Below are positions 69 to 21,373 of a stretch of DNA of 30,587 bases, piece after piece. The notes below the pieces were generated by a model. The model was not told where the DNA came from, searched no databases, and saw only the letters and a program-made list of their open reading frames with translations. Within the stretch, counting starts at the first letter, position 1, and every line of letters begins with the position of its first letter. The stretch spans positions 1-30,587 of the IMG/VR virus record IMGVR_UViG_3300021091_000280. One strand, 5' to 3'. Both the position numbers and the translations under genes were made by a program. The stretch is from a virus.

Positions 69-613
69 CCTGCAATCTCCCTTGCCCAGCCCCAACTATG
101 TCCAACTTCTTGCCCATCTGTACCCGCGCTGTTTAACGATCTATTGAGGGCATAGGTATATGTTCCTGATGAACTACTTCTTACAGCCAAACTATAAGTT
201 CTTGCATTAGTATTTGTCGCTGGATCAAACCAATTTATTGTACTCTGTTGTGGAGTTGTGCTATAATCATTATCATATGCTGGAGTTAATATATTAGACC
301 AACGAACATTTCCTCTATATGTATTATATCCTATTAAATTAGTATCTCTTAAAACTACAAATCCACAATCATGATGCATTTCATAAAATGTGGTCCAACG
401 TAGCCAAATAACACTGTCTGACCTCAATGGAGTAATAGTTAAATTAAGTTGTGTTATAGCTGTTCCATTTCCTGAATTTTGAGCAGTGTACGTAGCTCTT
501 ACACTAGTGCTTGCCTGAACATATTGAACCACTGTGCCTTGTTGAATAAGACCATTGTTTATGGACAGTTGACTTCCTGTAGCAGATGTCAAACCACTAA
601 GTGTAACTGTCAT
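65..613 (-). CDS. Putative fibre-tip/adhesin-like virion protein, paralogue of the gene before it
   Basis: A 182-residue protein with no membrane segment, rich in Thr, Ser, Asn and aromatic residues, as in beta-structured phage fibre tips. The N-terminal 35 residues look like a short attachment segment (polar, then QQGTVVQYV). The rest is clearly related to the 188-residue protein encoded immediately upstream: both share an HHD motif (YEMHHD here, YECHHD there), an L/V-I-G-Y/F-N segment, GNVR-W/Y-S, YSLxxRSS and a C-terminal EIA. The ATG overlaps the TGA of that gene by 4 nt (ATGA), pointing to translational coupling. I infer a role at the distal end of a fibre or on the baseplate, possibly host recognition. 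The family cannot be named from sequence alone. Confidence 0.85.
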   Translation of the reverse strand: MTVTLSGLTSATGSQLSINNGLIQQGTVVQYVQASTSVRATYTAQNSGNGTAITQLNLTITPLRSDSVIWLRWTTFYEMHHDCGFVVLRDTNLIGYNTYRGNVRWSNILTPAYDNDYSTTPQQSTINWFDPATNTNARTYSLAVRSSSSGTYTYALNRSLNSAGTDGQEVGHSWGWAREIAG

Positions 614-1176
614 TGTGCAATCTCCTGAATCATACAGTAGCTTACTCCGCCTTCATGATCATCTTGAAATGCTCCCCATGCTCTATTTACACGTATATCA
701 TAGTTGGTGCCTGTACTACTTCTCGACCCTAAACTATAAACATGAGGACCTACACTGCCAGGAGTATCGACCCAGGCCATGTGTGTGTAAGATGGCGTAC
801 TATTTTGGTCATGACTATGCTCATATTCTGCACAGCCTATTCCGCTATATCTTACATTTCCTACTTCTTGATTAAACCCAATTACTGTATTACTTCGTTT
901 AGCTTGAAATGTAATATCATGATGGCATTCATAAAACAACCACCATTGTAAGTATACACGACTATTTGCTCTTTTTAGTGTAATAGTGGTGTTTAGTCCT
1001 GCAATATCTCTACTATTGTTGTCATTATAGCTGTTATAAGTAACATGATTATCCATTTTACGCCAAACACATTGTATAACCTGTCCAGGCGCATATAAAA
1101 CTTGGTTGCTAGGAAAAGTAATTAAATGGTCATTATCTTGTCTAGCAGCTAATTCATCAGTAACTAATGTACTCAT
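610..1176 (-). CDS. Putative fibre-tip/adhesin-like virion protein with HHD motif
   Basis: A 188-residue protein related over most of its length to its downstream neighbour. An N-terminal segment (about 1-38) has the pattern LITF...LYAPGQVIQCVW, much like the stalk-joining starts of small marine phage fibre proteins. The C-terminal 115 residues hold YECHHD, VIGFN, GNVRYS, a His-rich stretch (YEHSHD), YSLGSRSS and QEIAQ. The His/Asp clusters could bind a metal ion, as happens in some fibre tips, but that is inference. The start codon shares one base with the TAA of the preceding fibre-like gene (TAATG), so the genes are probably translated together. Likely a trimeric receptor-binding or baseplate-peripheral protein; no exact family recognised. 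Confidence 0.85.
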   Translation of the reverse strand: MSTLVTDELAARQDNDHLITFPSNQVLYAPGQVIQCVWRKMDNHVTYNSYNDNNSRDIAGLNTTITLKRANSRVYLQWWLFYECHHDITFQAKRSNTVIGFNQEVGNVRYSGIGCAEYEHSHDQNSTPSYTHMAWVDTPGSVGPHVYSLGSRSSTGTNYDIRVNRAWGAFQDDHEGGVSYCMIQEIAQ

Positions 1177-2097: not shown

Positions 2098-2445
2098 TTA
2101 TGCTGTCGTTGTCTCTATACCCATTATAGTAATACTTAACGCCAGTCCTGTACCTGCTCCTCTGACGCTTACATATTTACCTGAATCTAAAACAAGTCCT
2201 GTGCGCTCTAAAACACCATTTGCAAGAATTTGAGAATCAAATTCTAAAAATTCTGCGTCTGTTGGTGCAGAAGGAGCTACAGATGTTGTAATAGCTATTC
2301 TAATTGTAGCTGTATTCGTAGAACTACGATTAGCAACGCTGACTGTTATCACCGAGAATGTATTCGCCGGAACTTGATAAGGAGTATAGTATGTGTTTGC
2401 TCCTGCACTTGTTATATCCTGAATTCCTAATCTTCCTGTCGCCAT
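2098..2445 (-). CDS. Small beta-rich virion protein
   Basis: A 115-residue protein beginning MATGRLGIQDITSAGANTYY, followed by alternating hydrophobic/polar strands (FSVITVSVAN, ATIRIAITT, ALSITIMGI) that suggest a single beta sandwich. A segment with LDSGKYVSVRG near the end resembles the placing of KLVLESNDSIACTC and KLILAENCSLRIVC in the two other small proteins of this window (17851-18186 and 16912-17241), so it may be a distant relative; this link is weak. GGAG lies 9 bases before the ATG. Small proteins of this sort are common in structural clusters of marine T4-like phages. A virion decoration or fibre-connector role is inference from position between the giant protein and the fibre genes. 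Confidence 0.8.
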   Translation of the reverse strand: MATGRLGIQDITSAGANTYYTPYQVPANTFSVITVSVANRSSTNTATIRIAITTSVAPSAPTDAEFLEFDSQILANGVLERTGLVLDSGKYVSVRGAGTGLALSITIMGIETTTA

Positions 2446-2461
2446 TTAAATCTCCATATTA

Positions 2462-5400
2462 TCAATTATTTAAGAAGTAATTCCAGGCTACAGGTAAACC
2501 TTTAACTCCGCCTGTAAAGTTAAAATTAGCGCTCATAGTAATTGCTTGACCAGTAGTTGTAGAAATAGTCGTTCCTGCAATTTCAATAAAGCCTGCTACA
2601 ACACTATTTACATTGATTGACGCTCCACCTCCTCCAATTTGCGCAGCAATATAACTACGTATTGCTCTTTGAGTAGGTACCACACTATCACTGTTGGAAG
2701 TAAAGAATGGATCTGTGCTAAATTCTGTAATAGTTGCACTTGTTCCGCCTAAGGTAACAGCTCCCAGTGTAAGTTCTGAAAGTCCTGAAATATTAAATGC
2801 ATCTGCATTTAATGTAGCTACACCTGTGGCTTGTTCAATAGTAAACAGTTCTCCAACTCTAAAATTTCCGTCCTGGTCAGTTGAAGTATAGAAAACTCTT
2901 CCTCCGTTGTTGTCAACAGTTTCATTAGCCTGAATAGGAGACTGAAAAGGTGTTAAAGGATAGTTGGTTTCTGTAAAACTACCAGTGCCTATATCTAAGA
3001 AATCATGTCCAGTAAGTCTTACTTGACTATACCTAATTCTTGTAGTTGCACCCGTACCGTCTGGAGGGGAATCAAACGTTGATAATTCAGGGCTAATTTG
3101 GAAAAAAGCCTTAATAGAACCAATATTCGTTCCTTGTAATGATAACACTTGAACTAACTTGAAAGTTCTATTTGGTAAATGTGCGAACACCACATTTGCT
3201 CCTGATGATGGAGTGCCTGTAAGCCTCCTAACAGAAACAAATTTTCCAGATTGGAAATTACTTGCGAATCCATCGCCACTATCTATACTTGCTACAACAT
3301 TATTATATCCTATACCCCTATTTTTAAAACTAGGTTGAGCTAAAATTCCAAATCCAGTTCTCACTGTAAATGGAGCTTCATAGATATTATTTGGATCTGT
3401 AATCGTCATTGTAGGAGTAGAAGTGTAAGCAGAACCTGGTTCTATGATACGAATTGAAAATATTTTTTCATCTGTTACAAAACATCTTGCTAGCGTAGTG
3501 GCGCCTAAGTTTGCGTATGAACTTGAAGTCGTTGAGGCACTTGGTATCGCTGTCCATATTGGAGTATTCAAAGGATTTCCAATCACTGATTTTTTAAATC
3601 CTGTGCCGCTTGCACGATTTAACACTCTATTTGTCCAAATAATCCCGTCCTGGGAACTACATGCAGTATTCGAATCATTAGTAGCTAAGAATATTCCTTG
3701 ACCATATGATATATTAGTATAACTTGCTGTAGTGCTCAATGAAGTTTGTATCCAGGTTAAGCCATCGAAGCTATAAGCGGCTATGTCTGTAGAATTAGCA
3801 GCCACAGCAACAAATCTATTTTTTCCGTAAGCAACACTGATCCATTGATTTGCAGTACCTCCCGAACCGATATCCGGTAATTGTCCTCCGGAGGTCCATG
3901 ATATTCCGCCGTCAACAGTAATAGCAGTATTTCTTGTGCCATTTGCAATTGCTACAAATCTTCCAGCTCCATAAGCCAAACTGCTCCAATTATCTTCTCC
4001 TGGCATTAATCCACCTACTGCCCAACCGGCTATACCTCCTGTACTGCTATAACTTGTTTGTTGTGATCCTGCTTTTATTACCAACCATCTGGTTGCTCCA
4101 TTTGATAATGTTCCGTATGCGATTGCAGTGTTATTAACAGAGGATCCTGTAAGGTTTTGCCCAGCACTCCATGATACACCACCGTTTTTACTATAAGCAG
4201 TTGCATTACTGCCGTTAGCAATGGCTACGGTTAAGTTTTCAAATGCAGTTGCAGTTCCTGTTCCAGTGCCTGATCCAGTAGCATTAAAGAAATCTCCTAC
4301 CTTTACTGTCAAATTACTGGCTGCAGGGTGCCCAATTAAAGTCCACTGTGTGGTAGCTAGAGCAGCAATTTTGTATGCTCTTCCTACTATAAATGATCCA
4401 GCCTGCGTAGGAGTAACTTCAACTATTTCACCTGTAGCCATTGCTGTCCAATTAAGACTAGCAGGTAATACATTAGGTCTATTAATCCAGTTAATACCAT
4501 CATTAGAAGTAATTACTGTTTGGCCAGTAGCAGGTAAAGCTATAAAGTTCCCAGCTTCAGCAGTACCGCTGATTTCAAAATCAACAATATTACCATTAAT
4601 TGAATTTACTGATGTAATTGTTAATGTTAGGTTGTGTACTCCATCAGTACCACCAACATTAGATCCTAAAATAGTTATAGTATCTAGTCTTAGATAATTA
4701 ACACCAAGATATCCAGGAATAAGTGTTACTGAAGAATATTTGGAGCCTTTTTTAGTTACTACAAATCTTGCACCAGATCCTCCTCCACTTGTATTACCTG
4801 TAATTGGGTAAAATACTCTTAGAATACGCGACCAATTTAAATCGCTATATACAGCGGCAGTGGATAATGTCATTGATGTACTGCTGTAGTCTGGATTACT
4901 AAAAGTTATTTTAGGTTCAATAGTGTAACTTGAACTGGCATCTGGAGCTACGATAGGGGTTCCTGCAACAAAATGGTCAAATCCGGCTGAGCCATCACTT
5001 TCTTTTACAATTGTAAGATCTTTAGTACCAATATTGTAGGAAGTTATGCTAGCATATTGACCTGCTCCTGATCCTGCTGTAATTACTATTCTCATACCTA
5101 TATATGCTGCTGCCACTTCTGGATCTACTGCTGCAATTTTAATTGATGTTGTAGTCCCTGATTGAGCAACGTTACTGTTTGTAATATATCCAAAACCTCC
5201 AAAATTACCAACAGCTTCTGGCGCATCTGTACTATCGTCCGTTAGGTCTGTCAACCTAACTTGCATTACTCCACGATCTCTAAATTCATCTTGTTCTACA
5301 GATAATTGTGTGCCATTTCCTCCAAACGCCCATGCAGCGGTGGTGTAGTTATTACCTGCATTTGAATATTCAATAGTGAAAATTTTGTTAGTTCCATCAC

Positions 5401-8400
5401 CTAAAACAGATCCTACTTCTGCGATAAATCCATTGTTATTAATTTCAGCAACAATAGGAGTTTCAGTGTTATCAAACCCTTCTGCAACACTGCCGAAATC
5501 ACCATAAGAGTTGTTTCCGTTAGTGCCTCTAATTCGCCCACCATTTTCCGCTAAGTACCCCACGTGAGAATAGTAAGTGAACACAGAAACTAATTCAGCT
5601 CTAGCATTGTTTGTTACCCAGGCACCTATACCATCACTGATAATTTGTGTGAAATCGTTTGAAGTTAATGATTTATTTCCACCATTGTGTAAACTCCCAT
5701 CTATTTTTTGGCCAATAGCAGCGTTTCCAAAAGTGGCTACGTTTTGAATGTAAGGACTTCTGGTAATAATCCATGTATGATAATCTGCTGGACCGTATCC
5801 TGGATCTAAAGAACAGTAGGCTCCAGCACTTACTCTGCTTGTTCCAAAAGAATTAGGTGCAAGTAGATCTCCTTTGAGGCCTTCTAGTGTTTGATTACGA
5901 ACACCGGTAGCATTTCTAAGATAATACATGTCTTCTTCAAAACTACCAATTACAGAATTAGCATAGTATCTAGCAGCTAAACTTGATTTATAATTACCAG
6001 TGAATCTAAGATCATACTTGATTGCATCAACGTATGCTGTAATATCTCTTGCACATGCAGTTTCATCATAGTCTAACATTACCATCATAGTGCCAGAACT
6101 ACCAGTAAGTGCCAATGGTTGCGTTGCGTCTTTAGTTAGAGCAATAGTAAATGTAGCATTATTGATAATATTTTGTATGTAATAAACTGTTTGTAAACTT
6201 AAACCGCCAAATAAGGTTCCTACAAATTTTACTGCGGCATTTCTTGACATCCATGCTGTTGACGAACAAGTGAGCGTACTAGTTGTTGTCAATACAACTG
6301 TACTGCTAAATGTCTGAAGATTATAAGCATCAATTTCATCTGTAATAAATTTCTTATTAAGTTCTAATAGATGAATAGCATAATCAGTATTAGCTTCAGG
6401 CTGACTACAAGGAATACCTTCAACTGTAGCACCAAATAATATATCATCTATCGTTTGCATTAAAGTAGTCAGTCTTGTTGCAGCAGTTGTATTAGAACTA
6501 ATCAAAGTCAATGCTTTATTCTTTGCAAAGGTTAGAGCATCTCTTGTTACCTGTTTCTGATTCAAACTGAAAACTTCGCTGCTACTAGATCTCAAATATG
6601 AATATCCTGCCTTTACTGTTTGATGATTTGAATTTAAACAAAAATCATAACATACAGCATCTAATATTATTGCTAAATCTCTACTACATTTTGCTTGATT
6701 ATATTTGAAATCACTAAATGTATCCGTAATATATTGTAATGTGTTAGATGTTATAATATTTTTTTCTAATTTTACTAAATTTAAAGCTGTTTGTATATCA
6801 CTAGCAGCCCATGTAATAATAGGAGTACTTTCTGCAGGTATTATTGTTGCATTGTCTGCGACTATGGCTGCATTTATCGCTGTTGCTAAAACTGTAATCT
6901 GTGTTTGTTCCGTAGCGCTAGCTGGATTACCACTAGTATCCTGTCCAGCATAAAGCTCTCTAACAACTTGTCCACATATATTGCCTAATTGAGCATAAAC
7001 TGCTGCATTTGCTGTTTTTGCTCCTGCATCAGGCAGCACAGATACACCATTTACTTGATTAAAAAGTGATCTAATTATATTTCTTGTAGCTAAATTTCCA
7101 CCGTATTGTACATCATAACTAAATGCATCTACTGCGTACCCTATGTCTCTTTGGTATGTAGTTTGACCTCCAGCTCCTAAACCTTGCCAATATGCATTGT
7201 AATTGACAATAGTATATGTTACGATAGTGCTGATAATAAAAGCTCTATTAATCTGTAGTTGTTCTCTAGCATATAATTTATTATTGTCTACCCCAGGATC
7301 AGTCCATACAATAGAATCAGCTGCTGCATATCCATTATTAATAATGTCCAGAATTTCATCATAACAATTGTTTACTCTTGTTACTGTTGTTGGGCTTGTA
7401 GAAACTTTTGCAGAAACTTCTTGTTTTATAAAAGCTATACTGGCTAATTCAGGATCTAATTGGAAGTTTAGCACAGGCAGTGATTGTGGTCTCAGGTATG
7501 ATATTCCGTTTTGTATTGCCCAGTAGTTTGAACCAAATGCACTGTCATAAAAACTTGCATCAATTAACAATTGAATATCTCGCCTGCAAAGAGAACTGAT
7601 ATAAGTATAGCTTCCAAAATTACTATTAATGTAATCTATAGTGTCAATTTTTATTTGAGGCACTGCAGAACTTAGAGCAGCAAAAGAATTTATTAATGCA
7701 GTAGTTGTTGTTGTTCCATTTGTTAAAGGAGGACGAGATACAGTATGAAAACTTATAGAAAGTCCTGTTCCATTTACCAAAGTTATACCTGGTCCATTTA
7801 AAGACAGACTTACTTGGAAACTACTAGCAGATAATCCATTAGGCAGCACAAAATATTTTTCACCATTTACTATTCCATTTAATGATGTAGCTAGTGCAAA
7901 TAATACGTCCCCTGCTGCTAACCCGTGTGAGGACGTAACTGTTAGCGTATTTGAACCAGTTATTGAATTTACAATAATTGTTGGTGTTGCATTAGTACTT
8001 CCACCTATAAGTATGTTTAGAAGGATATCCATACAATTATTTAGGTAGGTTTGTGCAGTTGTTCCATTTGTAAGGTACGTTGTATCTCTAAATTGAACTG
8101 CATTATTTCCTGTAGTTTTTGTAACAGTAGTATTGCTTACAATTTGTCCTAAAATAACTTTCATTCTTTGATACGCAGCAATATTTGCTGAAAATTCAGT
8201 GCTATCTATAACTGAACTAGAACCTGGTCCATCAAAGTAAGATAATGCAGCATCTAACGACTCTGATTTTCCTCCGTAAGTAATATCATAAATTAGTGCA
8301 TCAACGACATATCCTACATCACGCTTGCATTTAGTTCTAGAATATTTAACATTAGGATAAGTAAAGTCTACAAATGCACAGATTTCACTTTTAATAAATT

Positions 8401-11053
8401 CTTTGTTTTCTATTAAAAGAGTTCTGGCATGGTGATGTCCAGCTAAAAACGTAGTTCCAAATCCAGATGGTAACGTATAATATATCATATTAGTTTGAGC
8501 AGTTAGAAAATCAATTCTATGCTGCATCAATCTAGTTAATCTTGTTGTAAGGGTTCTTTGCGCACTTTGTCCAAGTGGAATCTGAATTACTTGATCAGTC
8601 ATGTTTGTTTGACTTCTTACCACTGGAGTACCGGTAACAATATTTCCGAGTATAGATTCTAGCCGTCCTAAACTTTGTATACTAAATTTTGTATCAGTAG
8701 GATCGGTGATACTACCTATAGGACCAGCATTTGTAGATCTAACTTCGTCTCCTAGAATTACTGTACTTTCTGGCACAATTATAGGTAATACTTCTCTATA
8801 CTGTCCAGTGAGTACATGCACAGTATTAAATGCTGCGTACCTTTCAGGTATATTTACTGCTGTTTTATCTAATAAAGTTTGTGTAATTATACCCATTAGT
8901 TTTGTTATTTCGTCTAAAGCGCCAGATTCTCCTGTTAACTTAGTTTCGAAGTATTGCACAATTATGTTTGTAGAATCTTCAGCTACATTTTGATATGCTA
9001 CAGTAGGAGGATCATTGTTTAAGCATTGTTGAATTAACGTTAACGCATAATTATAAGATGCTATAGACTTAGTGCTTTCAGCATTTAAATTTGTATAAAA
9101 TCCAGTTCCGCTCTGTTCATCTTCTGTCAAAGCGTTTACAAATGCTTGCGCTGCTCCTCTTGTGCGTACATTTCCTCCGTGACACAGGTCAAATGTTATA
9201 GCATCTAAAACCCATCCTATATCTCTTTCGCATCTTTCTTCACTATATTTGAAATTTGATGCGAAAGGAGCTATACTATTGCTAATTTGATAATTTGTCC
9301 ACTGAGTGGTTTCTCTTTGAATAAACAATCTATTCATTTCAAGCAATCGTTTTGCTTGAGGAAATCTAGCGCCTTTTTCAATTTCCATACAAGCATATCT
9401 AATTGTTTTCCACGGTTTATCTATTGTGCCACCATGAGTAGGCCATGGTAAATCAACTCCGTGAACACCAACGTAATATACTCTATCTGTTAATCCCCAA
9501 GATATCCATTCAGGCTTTAAATCTTCACTTACTCTAAGTATTTGACCTTCTGTACCTATAGGTAGTCTAGCCGGACCTGCACCATCATAGTACACTAGAT
9601 CTCCTAGTTCTGTTAAAGTTGCTGTTTCTGATCCTACACTAAGAATATTCCAATAAGTGCCTAATATATCTTGATCTGGTCGACTTAGTACTTGCCCTCC
9701 ACCAGTACTAGAAACTGTTGATCCATCATCTGCTTCTGACCTGTGTGCAAGAACACAGATATATGAATTATTTAAATATCTTACAGCATCACCTAGTACA
9801 TATTCTCTATCATCTACCCAATAACCTCTCCAATTTATTCCATTAGCTAATAATGTCCAAGTAGCTGTGTTAGGAGGTTTAAACGAAAAATTAGCTGTCA
9901 TAGATCCTGAACCAGTATTAGGTTCAAAAACTGGACCACCTAAAAAGTCTGAAATTTTAAATAATGTTGCTCCTGTTATTTCTTTAATGTAATAGGTAGC
10001 ACCGTTAAACACATTTCCAAAAGTCACACCTGAAAATTGTATTGCCATTCCTACTGTCATATTGTTAGTTGCAGCAGTTGTGAATGTATCGTTAGTTGAA
10101 CTCGATGCTGTTACAGATACACTGAAAGAAGGACTATCTAAATTTGCAACATAACTATATGAATTTAATTTAACAACTTCTCCTATGTAATAAGAAGTAG
10201 CAATGTTCCAGTTGGATCTAAAATCTAAACCTTCGCTAAATAAGTTCCAATTAGCTGTTCCTGTTACTGGATTACTATTTGTATGAAGTGTCTTTGATAC
10301 ATATTGATTGCCACCATACTTAACTATGTCTCCAGGTTGATATGAATTAGATGAGCTCCAGACAGACTCAAATTCTAGTCCTTGTATAAATGTGTTCCAA
10401 TTGGCTGTGTCTCCTGTAAAAGTATTTGAAGTATGATAAGTTACACAAATCCACGTTCCAGCACCAAATTTTACCACGTCATTAATTTTGTAACGTGTTC
10501 CAGTTGACCAATTGCCTTTGTATTCAACACCGGTACTGAAAATCTGCCATTTGGCAAGATCTGCTTCAAGTCCTTGGCTTAAACTTAACGCTGAAGTATG
10601 GTAAGTAATACAAACGTAATTTAAAGCTCCGTATTTTACGATGTCATTTATCTTATAACGAGTAGAAACACTCCAATCATTTTTCCAATCAAATCCTTCT
10701 GCAAAAAGCTCCCATTTGTCAGAATCTGTTTCTAAGCCTGAACTTACAGTAGATGTAGATGTATGATAAATTATAGCTAGGTATACATTACCACCATATT
10801 TGACAAGGTCTCCTTTTTCAAATATTGTGTTTACTGACCAATCACCCCGCCATCTCTGGCCATCTGCCATAAGATTCCATCTTGTAGGAACTAAATTTAG
10901 ATCTGTATTAAAATTTGGTGATGAAGTGTGCCCTAATACACACATATAAGTTTTACCGCCGTATTTTATTACGTCATCTTTAATGTATGTAGTAGATGAG
11001 TTCCACTCATTTTTCCATACAAATTTAATTCTACCTAATTTAAATTCAGCCAT
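2462..11053 (-). CDS. Giant modular virion protein (2863 residues), expanded paralogue of the 1808-residue protein
   Basis: Likely an exposed tail or baseplate appendage. Domain order by residue: seven Trp/Tyr-rich modules at 1-470, pattern W-x5-Y-x2-GD-x-V-K-Y-GG-x2-Y-x-C/A, resembling carbohydrate-binding CBM5/12 repeats; a pectate-lyase-like beta-helix opening at 520-560 (KPWKTIRYA) resumed near 738 (VLTGQYREVLPIIVP); six copies of a helical C-x-RD-x5-DA-x2-YD module near 602, 902, 1149, 1297, 1450 and 1659; a highly conserved beta-helix-like block at 1700-1860 (GQKIDGSLHNGGNKS); an Asp-box propeller at 2166-2450 (S-x-DG-x-x-W); and a conserved C-terminus from 2678 (YTSTDQDGNFRVGEL, then VPTQRAI). 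Beta modules sit inside other domains. No catalytic residues can be assigned. It follows its paralogue by a 38-base gap with a candidate late promoter. Confidence 0.9.
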   Translation of the reverse strand: MAEFKLGRIKFVWKNEWNSSTTYIKDDVIKYGGKTYMCVLGHTSSPNFNTDLNLVPTRWNLMADGQRWRGDWSVNTIFEKGDLVKYGGNVYLAIIYHTSTSTVSSGLETDSDKWELFAEGFDWKNDWSVSTRYKINDIVKYGALNYVCITYHTSALSLSQGLEADLAKWQIFSTGVEYKGNWSTGTRYKINDVVKFGAGTWICVTYHTSNTFTGDTANWNTFIQGLEFESVWSSSNSYQPGDIVKYGGNQYVSKTLHTNSNPVTGTANWNLFSEGLDFRSNWNIATSYYIGEVVKLNSYSYVANLDSPSFSVSVTASSSTNDTFTTAATNNMTVGMAIQFSGVTFGNVFNGATYYIKEITGATLFKISDFLGGPVFEPNTGSGSMTANFSFKPPNTATWTLLANGINWRGYWVDDREYVLGDAVRYLNNSYICVLAHRSEADDGSTVSSTGGGQVLSRPDQDILGTYWNILSVGSETATLTELGDLVYYDGAGPARLPIGTEGQILRVSEDLKPEWISWGLTDRVYYVGVHGVDLPWPTHGGTIDKPWKTIRYACMEIEKGARFPQAKRLLEMNRLFIQRETTQWTNYQISNSIAPFASNFKYSEERCERDIGWVLDAITFDLCHGGNVRTRGAAQAFVNALTEDEQSGTGFYTNLNAESTKSIASYNYALTLIQQCLNNDPPTVAYQNVAEDSTNIIVQYFETKLTGESGALDEITKLMGIITQTLLDKTAVNIPERYAAFNTVHVLTGQYREVLPIIVPESTVILGDEVRSTNAGPIGSITDPTDTKFSIQSLGRLESILGNIVTGTPVVRSQTNMTDQVIQIPLGQSAQRTLTTRLTRLMQHRIDFLTAQTNMIYYTLPSGFGTTFLAGHHHARTLLIENKEFIKSEICAFVDFTYPNVKYSRTKCKRDVGYVVDALIYDITYGGKSESLDAALSYFDGPGSSSVIDSTEFSANIAAYQRMKVILGQIVSNTTVTKTTGNNAVQFRDTTYLTNGTTAQTYLNNCMDILLNILIGGSTNATPTIIVNSITGSNTLTVTSSHGLAAGDVLFALATSLNGIVNGEKYFVLPNGLSASSFQVSLSLNGPGITLVNGTGLSISFHTVSRPPLTNGTTTTTALINSFAALSSAVPQIKIDTIDYINSNFGSYTYISSLCRRDIQLLIDASFYDSAFGSNYWAIQNGISYLRPQSLPVLNFQLDPELASIAFIKQEVSAKVSTSPTTVTRVNNCYDEILDIINNGYAAADSIVWTDPGVDNNKLYAREQLQINRAFIISTIVTYTIVNYNAYWQGLGAGGQTTYQRDIGYAVDAFSYDVQYGGNLATRNIIRSLFNQVNGVSVLPDAGAKTANAAVYAQLGNICGQVVRELYAGQDTSGNPASATEQTQITVLATAINAAIVADNATIIPAESTPIITWAASDIQTALNLVKLEKNIITSNTLQYITDTFSDFKYNQAKCSRDLAIILDAVCYDFCLNSNHQTVKAGYSYLRSSSSEVFSLNQKQVTRDALTFAKNKALTLISSNTTAATRLTTLMQTIDDILFGATVEGIPCSQPEANTDYAIHLLELNKKFITDEIDAYNLQTFSSTVVLTTTSTLTCSSTAWMSRNAAVKFVGTLFGGLSLQTVYYIQNIINNATFTIALTKDATQPLALTGSSGTMMVMLDYDETACARDITAYVDAIKYDLRFTGNYKSSLAARYYANSVIGSFEEDMYYLRNATGVRNQTLEGLKGDLLAPNSFGTSRVSAGAYCSLDPGYGPADYHTWIITRSPYIQNVATFGNAAIGQKIDGSLHNGGNKSLTSNDFTQIISDGIGAWVTNNARAELVSVFTYYSHVGYLAENGGRIRGTNGNNSYGDFGSVAEGFDNTETPIVAEINNNGFIAEVGSVLGDGTNKIFTIEYSNAGNNYTTAAWAFGGNGTQLSVEQDEFRDRGVMQVRLTDLTDDSTDAPEAVGNFGGFGYITNSNVAQSGTTTSIKIAAVDPEVAAAYIGMRIVITAGSGAGQYASITSYNIGTKDLTIVKESDGSAGFDHFVAGTPIVAPDASSSYTIEPKITFSNPDYSSTSMTLSTAAVYSDLNWSRILRVFYPITGNTSGGGSGARFVVTKKGSKYSSVTLIPGYLGVNYLRLDTITILGSNVGGTDGVHNLTLTITSVNSINGNIVDFEISGTAEAGNFIALPATGQTVITSNDGINWINRPNVLPASLNWTAMATGEIVEVTPTQAGSFIVGRAYKIAALATTQWTLIGHPAASNLTVKVGDFFNATGSGTGTGTATAFENLTVAIANGSNATAYSKNGGVSWSAGQNLTGSSVNNTAIAYGTLSNGATRWLVIKAGSQQTSYSSTGGIAGWAVGGLMPGEDNWSSLAYGAGRFVAIANGTRNTAITVDGGISWTSGGQLPDIGSGGTANQWISVAYGKNRFVAVAANSTDIAAYSFDGLTWIQTSLSTTASYTNISYGQGIFLATNDSNTACSSQDGIIWTNRVLNRASGTGFKKSVIGNPLNTPIWTAIPSASTTSSSYANLGATTLARCFVTDEKIFSIRIIEPGSAYTSTPTMTITDPNNIYEAPFTVRTGFGILAQPSFKNRGIGYNNVVASIDSGDGFASNFQSGKFVSVRRLTGTPSSGANVVFAHLPNRTFKLVQVLSLQGTNIGSIKAFFQISPELSTFDSPPDGTGATTRIRYSQVRLTGHDFLDIGTGSFTETNYPLTPFQSPIQANETVDNNGGRVFYTSTDQDGNFRVGELFTIEQATGVATLNADAFNISGLSELTLGAVTLGGTSATITEFSTDPFFTSNSDSVVPTQRAIRSYIAAQIGGGGASINVNSVVAGFIEIAGTTISTTTGQAITMSANFNFTGGVKGLPVAWNYFLNN
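4241..4429 (-). other. Gly/Thr-rich module inserted inside a propeller blade
   Basis: Residues 2209 to 2271 read EIVEVTP, GRAYKIAAL, TQWTLIGHP, VKVGDFFNAT and GTGTGTATAF. The flanks, WTAMATG and NLTVAIANGSNATAYS, together align with the unbroken WRCVAAGGNRFVALKYNSNA of the 1808-residue paralogue. Modules with the pattern Y-x-I-x5-W-T-x-IG-x-VG-x2-F-x-AT-G-x-GTGTA are a recurrent insertion in phage virion proteins, as I recall; the insertion itself is visible here by comparing the two paralogues. Confidence 0.75.
6080..6310 (-). other. Third beta module insert, inside the sixth helical module
   Basis: Residues of about 1581 to 1657 (TLTCSS, AVKFVGTLFGG, VYYIQNI, ATFTIAL, GSSGTMMV) separate FITDEIDAYNLQTF from YDETACARDI, which are adjacent parts of a helical module in other copies. 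It matches the order of elements in the first insert well. Confidence 0.6.
7750..7970 (-). other. Second beta module insert of the giant protein
   Basis: Residues of about 1028 to 1101 read in the same order as the insert in module six: NTLTVTSSHGL, VNGEKYFVLP, SSFQVSLSLNG, GTGLSISF. It lies between the second and third helical Cys-Arg-Asp copies. Similarity is by pattern of strands and spacing, not by strong identity. Confidence 0.55.
9640..11053 (-). repeat. Seven N-terminal Trp/Tyr-rich modules of the giant protein
   Basis: Residues 1 to about 470 hold seven units of 50 to 60 residues, longer where the sixth unit is interrupted. Each contains W (often after a basic or polar residue), Y-x2-GD-x-V-K-Y/F-GG, Y-x-C/S and HTS, ending in W-x-L/I-F/M-x3-G. 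The pattern is like the CBM5/12 carbohydrate-binding fold; sugar binding is inferred, not shown. The sixth unit is interrupted by about 80 foreign residues. Confidence 0.8.
9887..10126 (-). other. Beta module inserted inside N-terminal module six
   Basis: Residues 310 to 389 of the 2863-residue protein interrupt the sixth Trp/Tyr module: the module runs to YVANLDSPS and resumes at KPPNTATWTLLANG. The insert contains the phrases FSGVTFG, ATYYIKEI and ATLFKIS and ends in GSGSMTANF. Two related inserts lie at about 7750-7970 and 6080-6310. Confidence 0.65.
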
Positions 11054-11082
11054 TCTGTACTCCGGTTTTTATGAAGTTTTAT

Positions 11083-11090
11083 TATTTATT
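11083..11090 (-). promoter_or_regulatory. Candidate late promoter before the 2863-residue gene
   Basis: The minus strand reads AATAAATA, one mismatch from the T4 late box TATAAATA. It lies directly after the stop of the 1808-residue gene and 30 bases before the next ATG, leaving room for a short leader with GGAG. In so AT-rich a genome a 7-of-8 match can be chance; the position in one of the few gaps is the supporting point. Confidence 0.4.
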
Positions 11091-11091
11091 A

Positions 11092-14000
11092 TTACCTGGG
11101 CCTGAAAGATCTGTAGAAGTAATTTTGTGCTAACCATGATCCCTGAATATTTACATTAGGACCAGAAAAATCTGCTACTACAGGTATTTGATTAGTAAAA
11201 TTTGCAGTGTTACTTATTTTATTAGGCCCTACTTGTACAACCCCTGCTATAAAACTGGCAGTAAGTAAATCTTCACCTCCTACATTAAGTTTATTGTTTA
11301 AAAATGCAGCAATAGCTCTTTGCGTAGGAACAATATTATTTGAATTAGCTTGAAATGTAATATCTGTACTGAATTCTCTAATAACTGTTGCTGTTCCACC
11401 TACAATAATACCACCTAGTGCAAGTTCTGTTAGACCACTTAAATCAAAGAAATCAGCACTAAGTGTGACCGCCCCTGTGGACTGTTCAACTGCAAATAAT
11501 TCTCCTGCTCTAAAATTACCATCCTGATCGGTAGATGTGTAAAATACCCTGCCGCCATTCAGTTGTCCTACTTCATTCTGCGGTTGTCTATCAAATTCAT
11601 AATTTGTATATAAACCGGGATAATTAGTATCTACGAAATTTCCGACTCCAACATCTAAGAAATCATGTCCTGTTATTCTAACTTGACTATAACGTTCTTT
11701 TATGAGTACTTCTTGATCATCCTGTATTTCATCGTTAAAAGTTATTGCAGGACTTACTTGAAACTTTGATTTGAATGTTCCGTCTCCATTTTGACTAGTT
11801 TCAATGTCAGTTTTCACAGCAGTAATAAAATTACTTTTTCCTCCTATATAAAACTGAGCACCTGGTCCAGGAATTACACTTAGCCCATCAATAGTAACAA
11901 GTTTTCCTACTGGTTGCACATCTGCAAAGCCATCTCCTACTACAGTAACTTTTGTTGTATTAGTTTTCCAATATAATCCTCTATTGAAGAAAGTTGGCTG
12001 AGGAATCACTCCATCATTTATTCTACATCTAAGAGTAGCTTCTATTGTATTGTTAGGATCAACCAATGTGCATGTTGCAGATCCTGCATATCCTGATCCA
12101 GGATTCCACAACCTTATTTGTTGAATATTTCCACCTTCAACTATTGCTCTTCCTAGTGCTCTGGCTCCTGTTATTATTTTGTTAACTGCATTTGTTAAAT
12201 TTTTTCCGCTGGCAATAAACAACGGTGTATTGTTACTGATAGTAGAATCCCCAAGAGTAATGTCAGGAGATCCGAATGTTGCTATACTCCATTCTAGACT
12301 GGTGTCTAGAGTCCTAATTGTCCATTGGACACCATTTTCTGACGTTGCTGCAAAAGTTGTTGCCGTATTAGTTTGACTGGCACATAAAGCTAAAAACACT
12401 CCATGACCATATATAATTTTTTTCCAAGTCATTTCTACTCCTGGAGCCGGTCCTGGCATTCCATGAGCAGTGCTATACCACTGATAACCGTTAAAACTAT
12501 ACGTGGTATACCCAGTGCTTGACAAAGCTACAAATTTTCCTGTGCCATATGCAATACCAACCCAATCTTGAAGAGTAGAATCTTGAACTTCTATAACATC
12601 TGCTGTCCAATTCATTTGACTGGTATTCGAATTATAAACACCCACAGCCAGCGAGTTACCACTATTTGCTATTACATAAAATTTTCCTTGCCCATAAGTA
12701 ATATCAACCCATTCATTTTGTGTAGAATCTCCTATTGCTGGTAACTCAGTAAACGTCCATGTTTCACCTCCATCAGTACTAAATGCCCCTGCGTCTTGAT
12801 TACTGCTTATAGCAACAAAAATTCCATTTCCATAAGCACAGGCTTTCCAGTTATTTGTTGAAGGAAGTTGAGCTAGGTTCCAAGTAATCGCATCTTCAGA
12901 ATAAACTGCCGCATTACTATTGTATTTGAGAGCTACAAACCTATTTCCACCTGCAGCTACGCATCTCCATTCTCCTACAATGGGTAATATTGCTCCTGTC
13001 CATGTTTCTCCTTGCCTGCTGGTATATATAGTATCACCGTTTAGAGAAAATATAAGAAATTTTCCGCTTATACCTAACCCTTTAAAAGTAAAGTTAGTAA
13101 TTGAACCGCTGTATGAAACTCCAGTTACAGTAATTTTAATATCATGCTCAAAATCGTTGGCAGATATTTGACTACCTACAATTGTTAACACATCTCCTAC
13201 TTCATATCCAGTACCTGCTGCTGCAAGTGTTACACTATAAGTTCTATTAGTTTTGGTGATATTAAAAAGCGCAAGACCATTATCTGTAATTATACCATTA
13301 AAAGTTTCTTTTGTTTCACCATAAACAAGAGCTCCCCATAAATTATCTGTTGGTAGATTATATTCAGTTGCTATAAATCCAGGATGACTAAAAATTGGTC
13401 TAGGTTCAAATCTATATCTTGCTGTGCCTGTTAAAACATTTTTTATTGGTAGTCCAGGAATAATGTGGTCCCATCCAGGAGTATCATCGCTTTCTTTGTA
13501 CACAGTCACCTGTTTTTCATTTTCATTGTAAGCATACACGTAACCATATTGCCCAGTACCGTCACCAGCAGTTAATATAAGTCTTGTTCCTAAAATACTT
13601 GCTTCTGTGGCTAGATCATTTGTTCCTAAAGTTAGGGTTAAATTATCACCAAATTGTGCATTAAATCCTCGAATAATGTAACTTACGCCTTTAGTAAGCA
13701 CTTGGCATTCAAAAATTGCATTATCCCTAAATTCTTCTTGAAGTAGACTCAATCCACTACCAGAACCTTGAAATGTATAATTAGCTGAGGTATAATTTTG
13801 TCCTGCATTACTAAATTCTAAAGCAAATATTTCATCTGTAGCTTCACCACAAAAAGCAGCAGCTACCTGGGCCTGTTGATCTCTCGCATTTATTTTTCCG
13901 TACCTTGGAGTTTCTGCAGGATCATCTCCGTCAGCAACAGCTCCAAATGTACCATATGAACTATTACCGTTAGTAGCCCTTATAATTCCTCCATCTTCCG

Positions 14001-16518
14001 CAAACATACCAATTTGTGAATAATAGGTAAAGACTGAAACCAGTTCACCTCTTCCACCATTTAATACCCATGCTCCAATTCCATCACTAATTACCTGTGT
14101 AAAGTCATTACTGGTAATAGACTTATTGCCACCATTATGAAGACTACCGTCTATCTTTTGCCCAACTGCTGCATACCCAAATGTAGTACAGTTTTGAACA
14201 TAACAACTTCTAGATGTGATCCAAACTCTAGTATCTGCTGGTCCCCAACCTGGATCAAGGCTCACATAATTACCACCGGTAACTCTACGATAAGGTTCTC
14301 CAGTAATAGCAGGGGCAAGTTCTCCATTCAAGCCTATTAGAGTCATATTACGTACACCAGTAGAATCTCTTACGTAAAACATATCTTCTAAAGCATTTCC
14401 CACAACAGCATTTCCGTAATATCGCCCTGCTAGAGTCGATTTGTAATTTCCTGGATACCGTAAATCATATATAAATGCAGATATAAATCTATCAAGATCT
14501 CTTAAACATACTTCATCATCAAACTGATATGTAGTAGGAGTTGCTTTTACAAACCATAATGCTTCCTGTTTTATAAATTCTTTATTAGCTAAAAGATTAC
14601 TTACAGCACCTAATCTTCCTACATCAGTTGTAAGAGTATTATTTCCTGTTATATCTGGTTTTGTAGTAGATAATCCTATTTTAAAATCTATAAATTTTGT
14701 TGCATCTGCAATTAAAGCTTCAACAATATCAGACTCTGTTTCAGTAACTAAAGAACTAGTATTTTGAACTAAAGTGTTTCCTGCGCTTCTTGAAATTAAG
14801 ACACCTGTAAATAGGTCAGGCAATATTGTTTGAATTCTAACTAATGCTGCTTTTGTTTTAGCAGGATCTGGCTGCATTGCTGTTATAGGTCCTCGAGCTG
14901 CAACAATGACAGAACGAAGTTCTTCCCCCAACAATGCAGTTCTTGCAGGCACAATTATAGGTAAAATTTCATCATATCTGCCCGTACGAATGCTTATAGT
15001 AGTAAATCCTGAAAAATTGTCATCTGCTTTTTCTGTTGCAAATCTTATTGTTTTGTATGGTTTAAAATAATTTATTCCTCTCTCGGGATCAGTTTCGTCG
15101 TCTACTCCGTCTGGTGCTACATGAAATCTCCGTGCTAGATCTCCAAAACTTTGCCATACAAAATTTCCTTCTTCAGAATCATTTATTGTTAAAACATGAT
15201 CTTTTTGTCCTATAGGAATCCTTTGTGGTCCTCTAGAACTATCGTCTCCCAATACAGTTTTACCAAAAGTTAATAAATCTCCTATTTGGTCTAAACCACC
15301 TTGTTCATTTTCTATTAATACTGCCCAATATAATTGTCCTACTATAGGATTTGTATTAGATGTTGATAAATGAGGAATGAGGCATCTGTATGCACTTCCT
15401 CTATGATAAACTACATCTTCACTATTGTAGTAGGTGAATTCGTCTTCATCATCTGTTAAGGACCAATTACCTCTAAATTCATTTCCTGGTATTACTATTT
15501 CCCAATTACTATCGTCTAGATACGCAAGTGTACTATCATTTGTTATTTGATCAGTAAGTGCTACCCATAATGCACCACCTCGTTTTACTAGATCACCTTT
15601 TTTATAAAATAGATTTGAAGAAAAATTACCAACAAAATTTACAGCACTTACAAGATGATTCCAATCGGGATTTCCATTAGGATAAAAAACGGTATTGCCT
15701 GGTTCACTGTTAATATTATTTTTTTGTGCAATATACAGACTACTGCTAACTCTTACTATATCTCCGGCCGCATAATATGCAGTATTACTCCAAGAATTAT
15801 TATAGTTAAAGCCGTAAAATAATATTGTAAAATAATTATTATTAATATTTCCTATTTGGCTGGCCGAGGTGTGTTCATCTGTGCAAATAAATAATGATCC
15901 ACCATATTTAACTACATCATTCTTTCTGTACAATGTAGATATTGTGTAACTACCTCTATAGGAAATATTTTCAGTTACTATTTCCCATGTTTCGTTAGCA
16001 CTGTCATTGTCTCCACTATAATTTCCTGCATTTATACCAGATGAATAAGATGTATGTTCTAATATACATCTATAGGTTATTCCATTGTATCGAATAACAT
16101 CACCTATTTTATATCTATATCCGCTAGTCCAAGTGTTAGTCCAATTTTCACCAACAAAAAATAACAACCATTTATCATAATCAAGATCAAATGTTATCGA
16201 GCTTACATGTCCTATGGTACAAGTATATATATTTCCACCATGACTGATTACATCTCCATCAGTATACACCGTCGCTGCTGACCAATCTTGTTTAAATTCT
16301 AATCCTCCGGTCATTCTTGACCAAGCCGGAGAAATTAAAGTGTCTGTAGGAGCAAATTTGTAATTTTGATCAGCATAAAATGTAGTAGATGTATGAGCCC
16401 TAATGCAAGTCCACCCTCCCCCTGCATTAAATACACAATCATCACGTCTATAAGCATAATTAGGTTGCCAGTTTCCTATCCATCTGTAACGTAGTCTGCT
16501 GATCTTAAACTCTGCCAT
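11092..16518 (-). CDS. Giant modular virion protein (1808 residues)
   Basis: Probably a tail or baseplate appendage that contacts the host surface. Domain order: seven Trp/Tyr-rich CBM5/12-like modules at 1-403 (for example YKIGDVIRYNGITYRCILEH); a pectate-lyase-like opening near 475-525 (KPYKTIRFA, then RTGRYDEILPIIVP); one helical Cys-Arg-Asp module near 664-703; a beta-helix-like block at 710-860 that is almost identical in places to the larger paralogue (VGQKIDGSLHNGGNKS); a propeller at 1151-1440 with Asp-box phrases (STDGGETW, SENGVQW) and repeated YG-x-G-x-F-V/Y-A; and a C-terminus from about 1609 (YTSTDQDGNFRAGEL, VPTQRAI). The next gene is its tandem copy. No enzyme active site is evident, so binding rather than cleavage is the safer inference. 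The exact family is not recognised. Confidence 0.9.
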   Translation of the reverse strand: MAEFKISRLRYRWIGNWQPNYAYRRDDCVFNAGGGWTCIRAHTSTTFYADQNYKFAPTDTLISPAWSRMTGGLEFKQDWSAATVYTDGDVISHGGNIYTCTIGHVSSITFDLDYDKWLLFFVGENWTNTWTSGYRYKIGDVIRYNGITYRCILEHTSYSSGINAGNYSGDNDSANETWEIVTENISYRGSYTISTLYRKNDVVKYGGSLFICTDEHTSASQIGNINNNYFTILFYGFNYNNSWSNTAYYAAGDIVRVSSSLYIAQKNNINSEPGNTVFYPNGNPDWNHLVSAVNFVGNFSSNLFYKKGDLVKRGGALWVALTDQITNDSTLAYLDDSNWEIVIPGNEFRGNWSLTDDEDEFTYYNSEDVVYHRGSAYRCLIPHLSTSNTNPIVGQLYWAVLIENEQGGLDQIGDLLTFGKTVLGDDSSRGPQRIPIGQKDHVLTINDSEEGNFVWQSFGDLARRFHVAPDGVDDETDPERGINYFKPYKTIRFATEKADDNFSGFTTISIRTGRYDEILPIIVPARTALLGEELRSVIVAARGPITAMQPDPAKTKAALVRIQTILPDLFTGVLISRSAGNTLVQNTSSLVTETESDIVEALIADATKFIDFKIGLSTTKPDITGNNTLTTDVGRLGAVSNLLANKEFIKQEALWFVKATPTTYQFDDEVCLRDLDRFISAFIYDLRYPGNYKSTLAGRYYGNAVVGNALEDMFYVRDSTGVRNMTLIGLNGELAPAITGEPYRRVTGGNYVSLDPGWGPADTRVWITSRSCYVQNCTTFGYAAVGQKIDGSLHNGGNKSITSNDFTQVISDGIGAWVLNGGRGELVSVFTYYSQIGMFAEDGGIIRATNGNSSYGTFGAVADGDDPAETPRYGKINARDQQAQVAAAFCGEATDEIFALEFSNAGQNYTSANYTFQGSGSGLSLLQEEFRDNAIFECQVLTKGVSYIIRGFNAQFGDNLTLTLGTNDLATEASILGTRLILTAGDGTGQYGYVYAYNENEKQVTVYKESDDTPGWDHIIPGLPIKNVLTGTARYRFEPRPIFSHPGFIATEYNLPTDNLWGALVYGETKETFNGIITDNGLALFNITKTNRTYSVTLAAAGTGYEVGDVLTIVGSQISANDFEHDIKITVTGVSYSGSITNFTFKGLGISGKFLIFSLNGDTIYTSRQGETWTGAILPIVGEWRCVAAGGNRFVALKYNSNAAVYSEDAITWNLAQLPSTNNWKACAYGNGIFVAISSNQDAGAFSTDGGETWTFTELPAIGDSTQNEWVDITYGQGKFYVIANSGNSLAVGVYNSNTSQMNWTADVIEVQDSTLQDWVGIAYGTGKFVALSSTGYTTYSFNGYQWYSTAHGMPGPAPGVEMTWKKIIYGHGVFLALCASQTNTATTFAATSENGVQWTIRTLDTSLEWSIATFGSPDITLGDSTISNNTPLFIASGKNLTNAVNKIITGARALGRAIVEGGNIQQIRLWNPGSGYAGSATCTLVDPNNTIEATLRCRINDGVIPQPTFFNRGLYWKTNTTKVTVVGDGFADVQPVGKLVTIDGLSVIPGPGAQFYIGGKSNFITAVKTDIETSQNGDGTFKSKFQVSPAITFNDEIQDDQEVLIKERYSQVRITGHDFLDVGVGNFVDTNYPGLYTNYEFDRQPQNEVGQLNGGRVFYTSTDQDGNFRAGELFAVEQSTGAVTLSADFFDLSGLTELALGGIIVGGTATVIREFSTDITFQANSNNIVPTQRAIAAFLNNKLNVGGEDLLTASFIAGVVQVGPNKISNTANFTNQIPVVADFSGPNVNIQGSWLAQNYFYRSFRPR
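15310..16518 (-). repeat. Seven N-terminal Trp/Tyr-rich modules of the 1808-residue protein
   Basis: Residues 1 to about 403 hold seven units with W, Y-x2-GD-x-V/I, GG-x-x-Y/W-x-C/A and a closing W. None is interrupted here, unlike in the larger paralogue, so this copy shows the likely ancestral layout. Spacing between units varies, with linkers such as NYSGDNDSANETW. Confidence 0.75.
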
Positions 16519-16548: not shown

Positions 16549-16902
16549 TTATTCTGGATATGTATATTTTTGATTTATTCTTACGACGAAACTTCCGTCA
16601 TCCGATACATAATAATAAATTGATCTAGAATCCCACCTATATTGACTTAAAAACAAATTCTGAAAAACTATTTCATGATCTTCGTTCACATTATCTACAT
16701 AGTCCAACCCATATTCAAATTCTACATAATCTTCATCAGGAGGTCCAGGATTATTAATAACAATGCTTGTGCTAGCCTGTATTAAATTATTTCTTGTTAA
16801 AAATAATTCACCGTCATCATTTCTCCGCAGCCCATAAAAAAACTTAGGACTATTTTCTCCAAATATTGCATCATCTGTACTAAAAATATAATTTCCTGAC
16901 AT
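16549..16902 (-). CDS. Small virion protein with FGEN...FYGLRR motif
   Basis: A 117-residue acidic protein: MSGNYIFSTDDAIFGENSPK, FYGLRRNDDGELFLTRNN, a proline-containing loop (NNPGPPDEDY), and a Tyr-rich C-terminal half with SQYRWDSRSIYYYV and VVRINQKYTYP. It has no membrane segment and looks like one small beta domain. AAGGAA lies 6 bases before the ATG. Proteins with this opening occur, to my recollection, among small structural genes of marine T4-like phages, but no function is established that I can name. Its place, 30 bases before the giant 1808-residue protein, suggests a partner or connector of that appendage. Confidence 0.85.
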   Translation of the reverse strand: MSGNYIFSTDDAIFGENSPKFFYGLRRNDDGELFLTRNNLIQASTSIVINNPGPPDEDYVEFEYGLDYVDNVNEDHEIVFQNLFLSQYRWDSRSIYYYVSDDGSFVVRINQKYTYPE

Positions 16903-16911
16903 ATAATTTCC

Positions 16912-17241
16912 TTAAATTATTTCAGCATAACTAATAATTGCATCTACACTTGAAGAAACGTCACAAACAATTCTCAGACTACAGTTTTCAGCTAAAATTA
17001 ATTTTTCACCGTTAGTTACTACCTTCAAACTACTGTTTGCTGGAATAACGATGCCTTTTACATAGTAAGCTTCAACGCTATCTGAATCAACTACAGATAT
17101 ATCAACCGTTGTATTATCCTCAACAATATTTGCAAGATTACATCCTAAAATCGTAAATCTATTATTAGCATTTGTAGCAATGATATCTGTTGGTATAGTA
17201 CCTACACCCTGAACTACCTTAGTTCGAAAAAATGTTGCCAT
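16912..17241 (-). CDS. Small beta-rich virion protein, related to the 111-residue protein upstream
   Basis: A 109-residue protein with alternating beta-strand pattern. It aligns with the 111-residue product at 17851-18186: ILGCN with IIFCN, then VIPANSSL with TVPTGETF, then EKLILAENCSLRIVCD with EKLVLESNDSIACTCS. They are therefore paralogues two genes apart. The ATG is preceded only by a weak GGAT site, but a candidate late promoter lies 27 bases upstream, in a 64-base gap. A role as a virion decoration or fibre-joining subunit is inferred from size, fold pattern and neighbours; no named family is recognised. Confidence 0.85.
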   Translation of the reverse strand: MATFFRTKVVQGVGTIPTDIIATNANNRFTILGCNLANIVEDNTTVDISVVDSDSVEAYYVKGIVIPANSSLKVVTNGEKLILAENCSLRIVCDVSSSVDAIISYAEII

Positions 17242-20200: not shown

Positions 20201-21373
20201 TTAGAAGAATGTTGGATTTGCGATTGTGACTGTTCCTAAATAATCCTGCGCATTACCAAGAGAACTTGCAGTATTTGTTAACTCTACATAACCATAACGA
20301 GTCATAAAGCTAACTACTGGTTCAAATGTACTAGGATCAAGTACAACACCACTGCTCATTAATGGAATATATGGGCAGTAGAATGCTGCTGCATCACTTT
20401 CTGTACCGCCTTTGTATCCTACCAGCACAGCGGCATTGTCAGCTGCGTATGTATCTACATATACTTTCATAGCACCATTTAATGTTCCAGCAAATTTAGT
20501 GTTTGTTGGAGCTTCAAATGTGCCTTCAGTTGTGCGGGCAAAAGCAGAAGTTGTAGCACTCTGTAGCATTGTAAGCACTAGTGGACTGACTACGGCCCAA
20601 TTACCAGCGCCACGGCGTGTACGCTGAGCGATTACATTTGCAACACGATTGATAGCAACTGCTAGAGCTGCGTGCTCATCACCAACGAACGTAGCTGTAC
20701 CGCTTACAGCAGCTTGGTCAAAAGCCTGTTGATTTTGCGATCCTGCTAGACTGCGTAGACTTGAAAGAATTTCACGATCAATCTCAGCAGTAATTTCCTG
20801 TGCAAGAGCAGCCATAATCTCTGCTTCTACATCTATACCATGCTGAGCTTGCATATCTTGAGCAGCTTCAAATGTCCAGCGAGCGCTTAACTTACGAGTT
20901 TTCGCTTCAACTGTTTGCTTTAAGATTTGAATGCTCATTCTGTTACCAGCTACACCTTCTAAAGAGGCTGTAGCTGCTGCTTTACCTGGAGCTACTCCAG
21001 AATAGCCTTCAGCAATTTTAAATGGACTAAGTGCTTCTTCGCCTGCTGTTGTGCTGCCACCTGTACCGTCTGTAAAGTTATCAGCATAACGAACTCTTAG
21101 TGTATGGATCTGTCCAACTGGTCCTGTCATAGGTTGAACGCCAACTATTTCATTGGCTATTACCGTTGGCATGACGCGACGGATTACTGGAAGAATAACA
21201 CGATTTAATGTTGCAACGTTGCCGGCAGAAGTAGCACCAGCGGTAGCACTTTCTGAAAGATACTTACGAGTATTCTCTAGAGTGGCTGCCATAACTGATT
21301 TTTTGGTGCCTTGTAGGCCTTCCAAAAGAGCCTCTTTTGTCTCTGCCCAACGGCTTGTTAGTAGTTCTGACAT
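20201..21373 (-). CDS. 23: Major capsid protein, gp23 family
   Basis: A 390-residue HK97-fold shell protein of the T4 gp23 family, assembling as hexamers around the gp22 core. Family hallmarks are at about residues 35-95: NTRKYLSESATAGATSAGNV, ATLNRVILPVIRRVMPTVIA, IVGVQPMTGPVGQIHTLRVR. Further on are RWTFEAAQDMQAQHGIDVEA and AEIDREIL, then SGVVLDPSTFEPVVSFMTRY near the end. T4 gp23 has 521 residues, so this copy is short and probably lacks most of the inserted surface domain. LSE at residues 39-41 fits the gp21 cleavage rule (I/L)-x-E, predicting a mature N-terminus at Ser42. AGGAGA lies 7 bases before the ATG. It follows gp22 by 25 bases and is closed by a strong terminator. Confidence 0.96.
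   Translation of the reverse strand: MSELLTSRWAETKEALLEGLQGTKKSVMAATLENTRKYLSESATAGATSAGNVATLNRVILPVIRRVMPTVIANEIVGVQPMTGPVGQIHTLRVRYADNFTDGTGGSTTAGEEALSPFKIAEGYSGVAPGKAAATASLEGVAGNRMSIQILKQTVEAKTRKLSARWTFEAAQDMQAQHGIDVEAEIMAALAQEITAEIDREILSSLRSLAGSQNQQAFDQAAVSGTATFVGDEHAALAVAINRVANVIAQRTRRGAGNWAVVSPLVLTMLQSATTSAFARTTEGTFEAPTNTKFAGTLNGAMKVYVDTYAADNAAVLVGYKGGTESDAAAFYCPYIPLMSSGVVLDPSTFEPVVSFMTRYGYVELTNTASSLGNAQDYLGTVTIANPTFF

Follow-up and report, generated by a model that had tools for sequence, protein, structure and literature searches.

Paired giant fibre-type genes in uncultured large T4-like phages, the downstream one extended by phycobiliprotein-like modules

The stretch of DNA analysed here (the window) is the entire viral record IMGVR_UViG_3300021091_000280, a genome fragment of 30,587 bases. 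It holds two giant open reading frames, both on the minus strand and separated by 38 nt, which are referred to as the D (downstream) and U (upstream) copy. Small cassette genes lie on either side of the pair, and T4-like portal, protease, scaffold-like and capsid genes lie upstream of it.

2462..11053, minus strand: D copy, downstream giant fibre-type protein, 2863 aa (Pfam, PHROG, BLASTP)
11092..16518, minus strand: U copy, upstream giant fibre-type protein, 1808 aa (Pfam, PHROG, BLASTP)
2098..2445, minus strand: 115-aa cassette gene directly downstream of the pair; a homologue follows the single cyanophage fibre gene
16549..16902, minus strand: 117-aa cassette gene directly upstream of the pair; a homologue precedes the single cyanophage fibre gene
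16912..17241, minus strand: 109-aa cassette gene
20201..21373, minus strand: major capsid protein, most similar to capsid proteins from large T4-like phages

A first-pass annotation had described the giants as tandem paralogues with one shared plan, and had set beforehand that their similarity should extend beyond short low-complexity parts. In BLASTP the two copies are 37% identical across 1241 columns in the C-terminal part (E=0) and 32% identical in an N-terminal segment of 330 aa (E=4e-49); these alignments rule out chance or low-complexity similarity. The seven N-terminal modules claimed for each protein are CBM5/12-like: Pfam CBM_5_12 (PF02839) matched both giants (8.8e-29 and 5.1e-28; 99.7 and 97.3 bits against a cut-off of 26.2), and a module HMM counted seven in each, with one additional match in the U copy near aa 1186, inside the propeller. 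The KPxKTIR-x-A phrase, proposed as the entry into a beta-helix, is present in both copies, while the beta-helix itself is predicted only, in the form of long beta-rich stretches. The near-identical shared block could be confirmed through the phrase GQKIDGSLHNGGNKS, identical in U and D, a propeller is supported in both giants, and both carry the C-terminal motifs YTSTDQDGNFR[VA]GEL and VPTQRAI. Both match the tail fibre family phrog_9851 over most of the protein (2.5e-182 and 3e-134). A search for DNA repeats in the window returned nothing besides the U/D paralogy.

9689..11020, minus strand: D copy, seven CBM5/12-like modules, aa 12-455, with an insertion in the sixth (Pfam, module HMM)
15319..16485, minus strand: U copy, seven CBM5/12-like modules, aa 12-400 (Pfam, module HMM)
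9392..9418, minus strand: D copy, entry phrase KPWKTIRYA
15037..15063, minus strand: U copy, entry phrase KPYKTIRFA
5414..5956, minus strand: D copy, shared core including GQKIDGSLHNGGNKS, aa 1700-1880
13879..14421, minus strand: U copy, shared core including GQKIDGSLHNGGNKS, aa 700-880
3491..4546, minus strand: D copy, beta-propeller region, about aa 2170-2521
12184..13071, minus strand: U copy, beta-propeller, about aa 1150-1445, Ycf48/kelch-like
2624..3031, minus strand: D copy, C-terminal block YTSTDQDGNFRVGEL ... VPTQRAI
11269..11685, minus strand: U copy, C-terminal block YTSTDQDGNFRAGEL ... VPTQRAI

The capsid protein has its closest named relatives in Vibrio phage 2.275.O (71%; 349 kb), Sinorhizobium phage Phosso (70%; 469 kb) and Pseudomonas phage PA5oct (69%; 287 kb). 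Beside the portal gene lies a 1271-aa protein (26728-30543, minus strand) with no PHROG match, and PA5oct and Phosso have a long gene at the same position. Between the portal and head genes, a 195-aa open reading frame (24145-24732, minus strand) matches the phage alpha-2,3-sialyltransferase family phrog_4603 weakly (1.6e-6). At the other end of the window, two adjacent paralogous genes of 182 and 188 aa (65-1176, minus strand) both match the C-terminus of tail fibre family phrog_6942. Another contig, IMGVR_UViG_3300021376_000603 (L013), is identical to the window across the U copy and neighbouring genes. The photosynthesis gene psbA was rejected as a mark of a cyanobacterial host for this group, as it is missing from both of its large genomes (contigs of 280 and 364 kb), and the host therefore need not be a cyanobacterium.

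Searches of viral contigs recovered 18 loci with single proteins and at least 77 by alignment. Both copies are found in at least 65 contigs including the window, with U before D every time and a gap of 18-74 nt, so the two genes are not always apart with distinct domain order, and a double-copy form in environmental phages stands beside the single-copy form of isolated cyanophages. The gene order is 109aa-117aa-U-D-115aa in the group compared with 117aa-S-115aa in cyanophages, where a single fibre gene (P-SSM2, S-CAM1, AG-345-P14) stands between homologues of the 117-aa and 115-aa genes. As these homologues bracket one gene there, the pair would have originated by duplication in place, inside an existing cassette.

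In trees of the proteins the U and D copies formed two separate groups (SH-aLRT 90 and 87), and in a tree of a smaller subset the D copies were one clade with support 100. The distance matrices of U and D mirror each other (r=0.81, 0 of 5000 permutations). A single old duplication common to the whole group, and not particular to the genome of the window, fits these sequence comparisons best and is favoured, but it is not proven: in the AU test a tree with a separate duplication in the basal group stays compatible (p-AU 0.31), and a later repeat duplication in that group is possible. Gene conversion between the copies within genomes was also considered and left little sign, with U-D distances of 0.38 within and 0.40 between genomes.

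The modular host-adhesion plan that had been proposed for these appendages stands in part. The plan of the giants is adhesin-like, and both are assigned to phrog_9851, but the shared plan is not fixed, since six basal U copies have no propeller (loci L027, L028, L029, L030, L076 and L078); four single-copy phage proteins likewise have none. In three loci the D copy is split into two genes (L049:15763-21854, L050:10612-18937, L093:12156-20389), of which the first holds the CBM modules and the first phycobiliprotein-like module and ends in a poly-glycine tail, and the remainder begins with MAT[VI]FE. Directly upstream of the pair in many loci, though not in the window, are giant relatives without CBM modules that share the core and/or the C-terminal block (L027:5069-11047, L038:1933-9257, L065:650-9284 and others).

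A tandem duplication followed by growth of one copy by more than 1000 residues, as read in the first-pass annotation, agrees with the comparison of the two proteins, and the growth is located mainly at aa ~560-1690 of the longer one. What had been overlooked is its content. Judged from sequence and structure prediction, the added region is a tandem array of phycobiliprotein-like modules, marked by the pattern RD...DA..YD, with a single partial occurrence in the shorter copy.

8981..9358, minus strand: D copy, phycobiliprotein-like module 1, aa 566-691, CERD
8093..8434, minus strand: D copy, phycobiliprotein-like module 2, aa 874-987, CKRD
7358..7693, minus strand: D copy, phycobiliprotein-like module 3, aa 1121-1232, CRRD
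6953..7270, minus strand: D copy, phycobiliprotein-like module 4, aa 1262-1367, YQRD (no Cys)
6455..6793, minus strand: D copy, phycobiliprotein-like module 5, aa 1421-1533, CSRD
5924..6169, minus strand: D copy, partial sixth module, aa 1629-1710, CARD, continuing into the core
14359..14619, minus strand: U copy, single partial module, aa 634-720, CLRD

Across the group, D copies contain 2-8 repeats of about 167 aa, and in 58 complete D copies the length is described by 1771 + 167 x modules (r=0.84). The U copies have a median length of 1848 aa and contain no module or one, with two in one case.

Homology of these modules to phycobiliproteins can be regarded as established for practical purposes, on the strength of profile comparisons and a structural model. 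Pfam's Phycobilisome family (PF00502) had weak matches in 6 of 38 repeat regions and in 7 of 30 modules; the D copy of the window had none, and relatives of it stayed below the cut-off. A PDB search with the whole module region returned no useful match. With a profile of 30 modules, however, 33 of 35 PDB matches (E up to 10) were phycobiliproteins, the best at E 0.007, and the alignments are in register, with the C-x-R-D of the modules falling on the chromophore motif. A single unaligned segment of S-CAM1 gave 17 phycobiliproteins among 18 PDB matches. Alignment by hhalign of the 30 modules with cyanobacterial phycocyanins reached 94% probability and a score of 48.5, whereas none of 20 column shuffles scored above 15.2 and the reversed profile scored 14.3. 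Because the choice of these 30 had taken the motif into account, the alignment was redone with 126 unselected non-redundant modules, which gave 94.9% and a score of 49.3 (reversed 9.3); with the C, R and D columns masked, a score of 28.5 was kept over about 97 columns. Run against four whole cyanobacterial genomes (2.7-8.3 Mb), the phage profile found five matches, all of them phycocyanin genes (E 0.05-0.6).

AlphaFold2 without templates predicted the repeat region as all-helical (mean pLDDT 86.7). Among the 50 matches listed by Foldseek for this model, all those with probability of at least 0.9 (0.92-1.00) were phycobiliproteins except one phage capsid chain. TM-scores of the phycobiliprotein matches, normalised by target, were 0.50-0.70; the E-values were weak (0.4 and above), as the query is a long multidomain model. 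The phage modules share with phycobiliproteins and the bilin biosynthesis-associated globins (PF00502; PMC10151467) a common predicted fold, a unit of about 160 aa and the C-x-R-D motif. They differ in standing in tandem within a fibre-type protein, in an identity of only about 10-20% and in an invariant Asp 14 residues past the Cys position that is specific to the phages; as bilin binders they are putative.

In phycobiliproteins the Cys of this motif attaches the bilin, and Arg and Asp form hydrogen bonds to it (PMC10151467). In the 126 diverse non-redundant phage modules Cys is kept in 87%, Arg in 81% and Asp in 98%, which places the three among the best-conserved columns. The full motif is found in 94 of 126, so that about a quarter are without it; in the window it is present in four of the five full modules, module 4 having Tyr for Cys.

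Genes for bilin synthesis or for a bilin lyase occur in some of the genomes with such modules. In the group's two largest contigs (280 and 364 kb), with 5 and 11 module matches, heme oxygenase and bilin reductase genes overlap and sit away from the fibre genes; the reductase shares 51% identity with its counterpart in Pelagibacter phage Mosig. On these two contigs (L207:4000-10425 and L208:4400-10264) the gene pair adjoins genes that, named by eye, appear to be of secretion/curli-like, Hsp20, DnaK and ClpS-like type. CpeT and CpeS lyases were not found in the large genomes of the group. Among the cyanophages, S-CAM1 has cpeT about 1.1 kb ahead of its 3693-aa module protein, ACG-2014j has it directly ahead of a 12-kb module gene (290 nt apart), and Sf-FP1 has a pcyA-type gene ending 37 nt short of a 13-kb module gene, and cpeT a little upstream of that pcyA-type gene. 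Cyanophages keep a conserved gene order, so these cpeT neighbourhoods should not be counted as separate events. In P-SSM7 and S-SSM4 a long distance separates the bilin genes from those with modules. That modules and phage bilin genes strictly go together was rejected, as there are counter-examples both ways: heme oxygenase and reductase occur in Mosig and P-SSM2, which have no detectable modules, and S-CAM1 carries modules along with cpeT and lacks both reductase and heme oxygenase. Vibrio 2.275.O, PA5oct and Phosso, of the same capsid lineage, have no heme oxygenase and no modules.

Taken together, the giants are best explained as paired host adhesins of which the downstream copy has grown by globin modules of the bilin-binding type (probability about 0.6). 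They would form a conserved paralogous pair of tail-fibre type, belonging to large T4-like phages of a lineage not yet cultured. Each protein has seven CBM5/12-like modules as its base, followed by a beta-rich shaft or core and then a propeller, and ends in a C-terminal block for attachment or serving as tip; on this plan they presumably sit on the virion tail and bind sugars. After duplication between the 117-aa and 115-aa genes, the D copy would have been extended by tandem modules of globin fold. Most likely these bind a linear tetrapyrrole and render the fibre pigmented, as suggested by the C-x-R-D kept in most modules together with the bilin-synthesis or lyase genes in genomes of the group or adjoining the module genes of cyanophages. 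Such a pigment could stabilise or tune receptor binding, and perhaps adsorption could even change with light, both of which are speculative.

Convergence on a helical hairpin, with a C-x-R-D arisen by chance, is a very improbable explanation of the modules: the single E-values are indeed modest (0.007 in the PDB, 0.05-0.6 in genomes), but the motif-masked profile alignment stays above the shuffles, a model built without templates independently selects phycobiliproteins, the module length agrees with theirs and all five whole-genome matches were phycocyanin genes. A more serious competitor is that the fold was retained without pigment, the modules being helical spacers that lengthen and decorate the shaft and keep C-x-R-D for folding or by descent. 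The scaling of D length with module number, the loss of Cys or Arg in some modules and the existence of bilin genes without modules in Mosig and P-SSM2 would all be in line with this. Against it stand the conservation of exactly those three residues which attach and hold bilin in phycobiliproteins (PMC10151467), and the bilin genes that adjoin module genes in several cyanophages; spacers of this kind are conceivable, at clearly lower odds than bilin-binding modules.

Alternatively, the modules could mimic phycobiliproteins so as to bind host proteins that handle phycobiliproteins or tetrapyrroles, or a surface receptor for them, instead of carrying pigment. Among 50,697 named phage records, one module of the window matches 143 and the S-CAM1 modules match 346, in each set all marine cyanophages except for one unassigned marine virus, and cyanobacterial hosts are rich in such proteins. 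However, the host of this group need not be a cyanobacterium, given the missing psbA, no such receptor is known, and it appears to be the bilin-site motif, not a surface patch, that is conserved, which makes mimicry quite unlikely.

If the modules do bind bilin, the growth of the D copy would suggest that the pigment genes of many aquatic phages have a new role. What phycobilin synthesis genes do in phages has been termed a mystery, and the role of phage cpeT has been described as unresolved (PMC3037559). For phages of hosts without phycobilisomes, it is an open question what the hemO-pcyA/X cassette does, and a bilin-binding globin has been put forward as one candidate partner (PMC11480375). 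For several cyanophages adsorption is reported to depend on light (PMC2984593), which is usually explained by host photosynthesis (PMC9229316). C-x-R-D modules in tail proteins would be one partner that could connect phage bilin genes, cpeT, hemO-pcyA/X and this adsorption. Tentatively, heme oxygenase, bilin reductase and the CpeT lyase might serve the phages' own fibres, yielding chromophorylated modules, pigmented adhesins and host binding that may respond to light, although this is doubtful enough to be offered as a suggestion. If true, pigmented adhesins would be a direct cause of the reported light dependence.

Tail fibres and phycobiliproteins are each known; in open-licence PubMed Central no paper was found on their combination as an expanding tandem array in one of two duplicated giants, nor any tying phycobiliprotein domains to phage tail fibres. 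The nearest known relatives are the phrog_9851 fibres of marine T4-like phages (S-CAM1, P-SSM2 and Mosig EXVC030M; Kyanoviridae), which likewise have an N-terminal CBM5/12 array, a beta-rich core and a C-terminus of the YxSTDxxGxFRxG / VPTQ type, and in most of which the 115-aa and 117-aa genes flank the fibre. In these named phages there is one copy and not two, with 5-6 CBM modules, and propeller and phycobiliprotein-like modules are undetectable in that protein. The same modules are instead carried by other cyanophage giants (phrog_5342 and phrog_4527; S-CAM1 AOV57775, S-PM2 T4-GC 830, S-WAM2), which lack the CBM5/12 pair plan and lie at another locus, some adjoining cpeT or pcyA. The module-bearing proteins of named phages are annotated as tail, short tail fibre or (virion) structural proteins. 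In S-CAM1 PF00502 lies above its cut-off, so database annotations may already list the module there.
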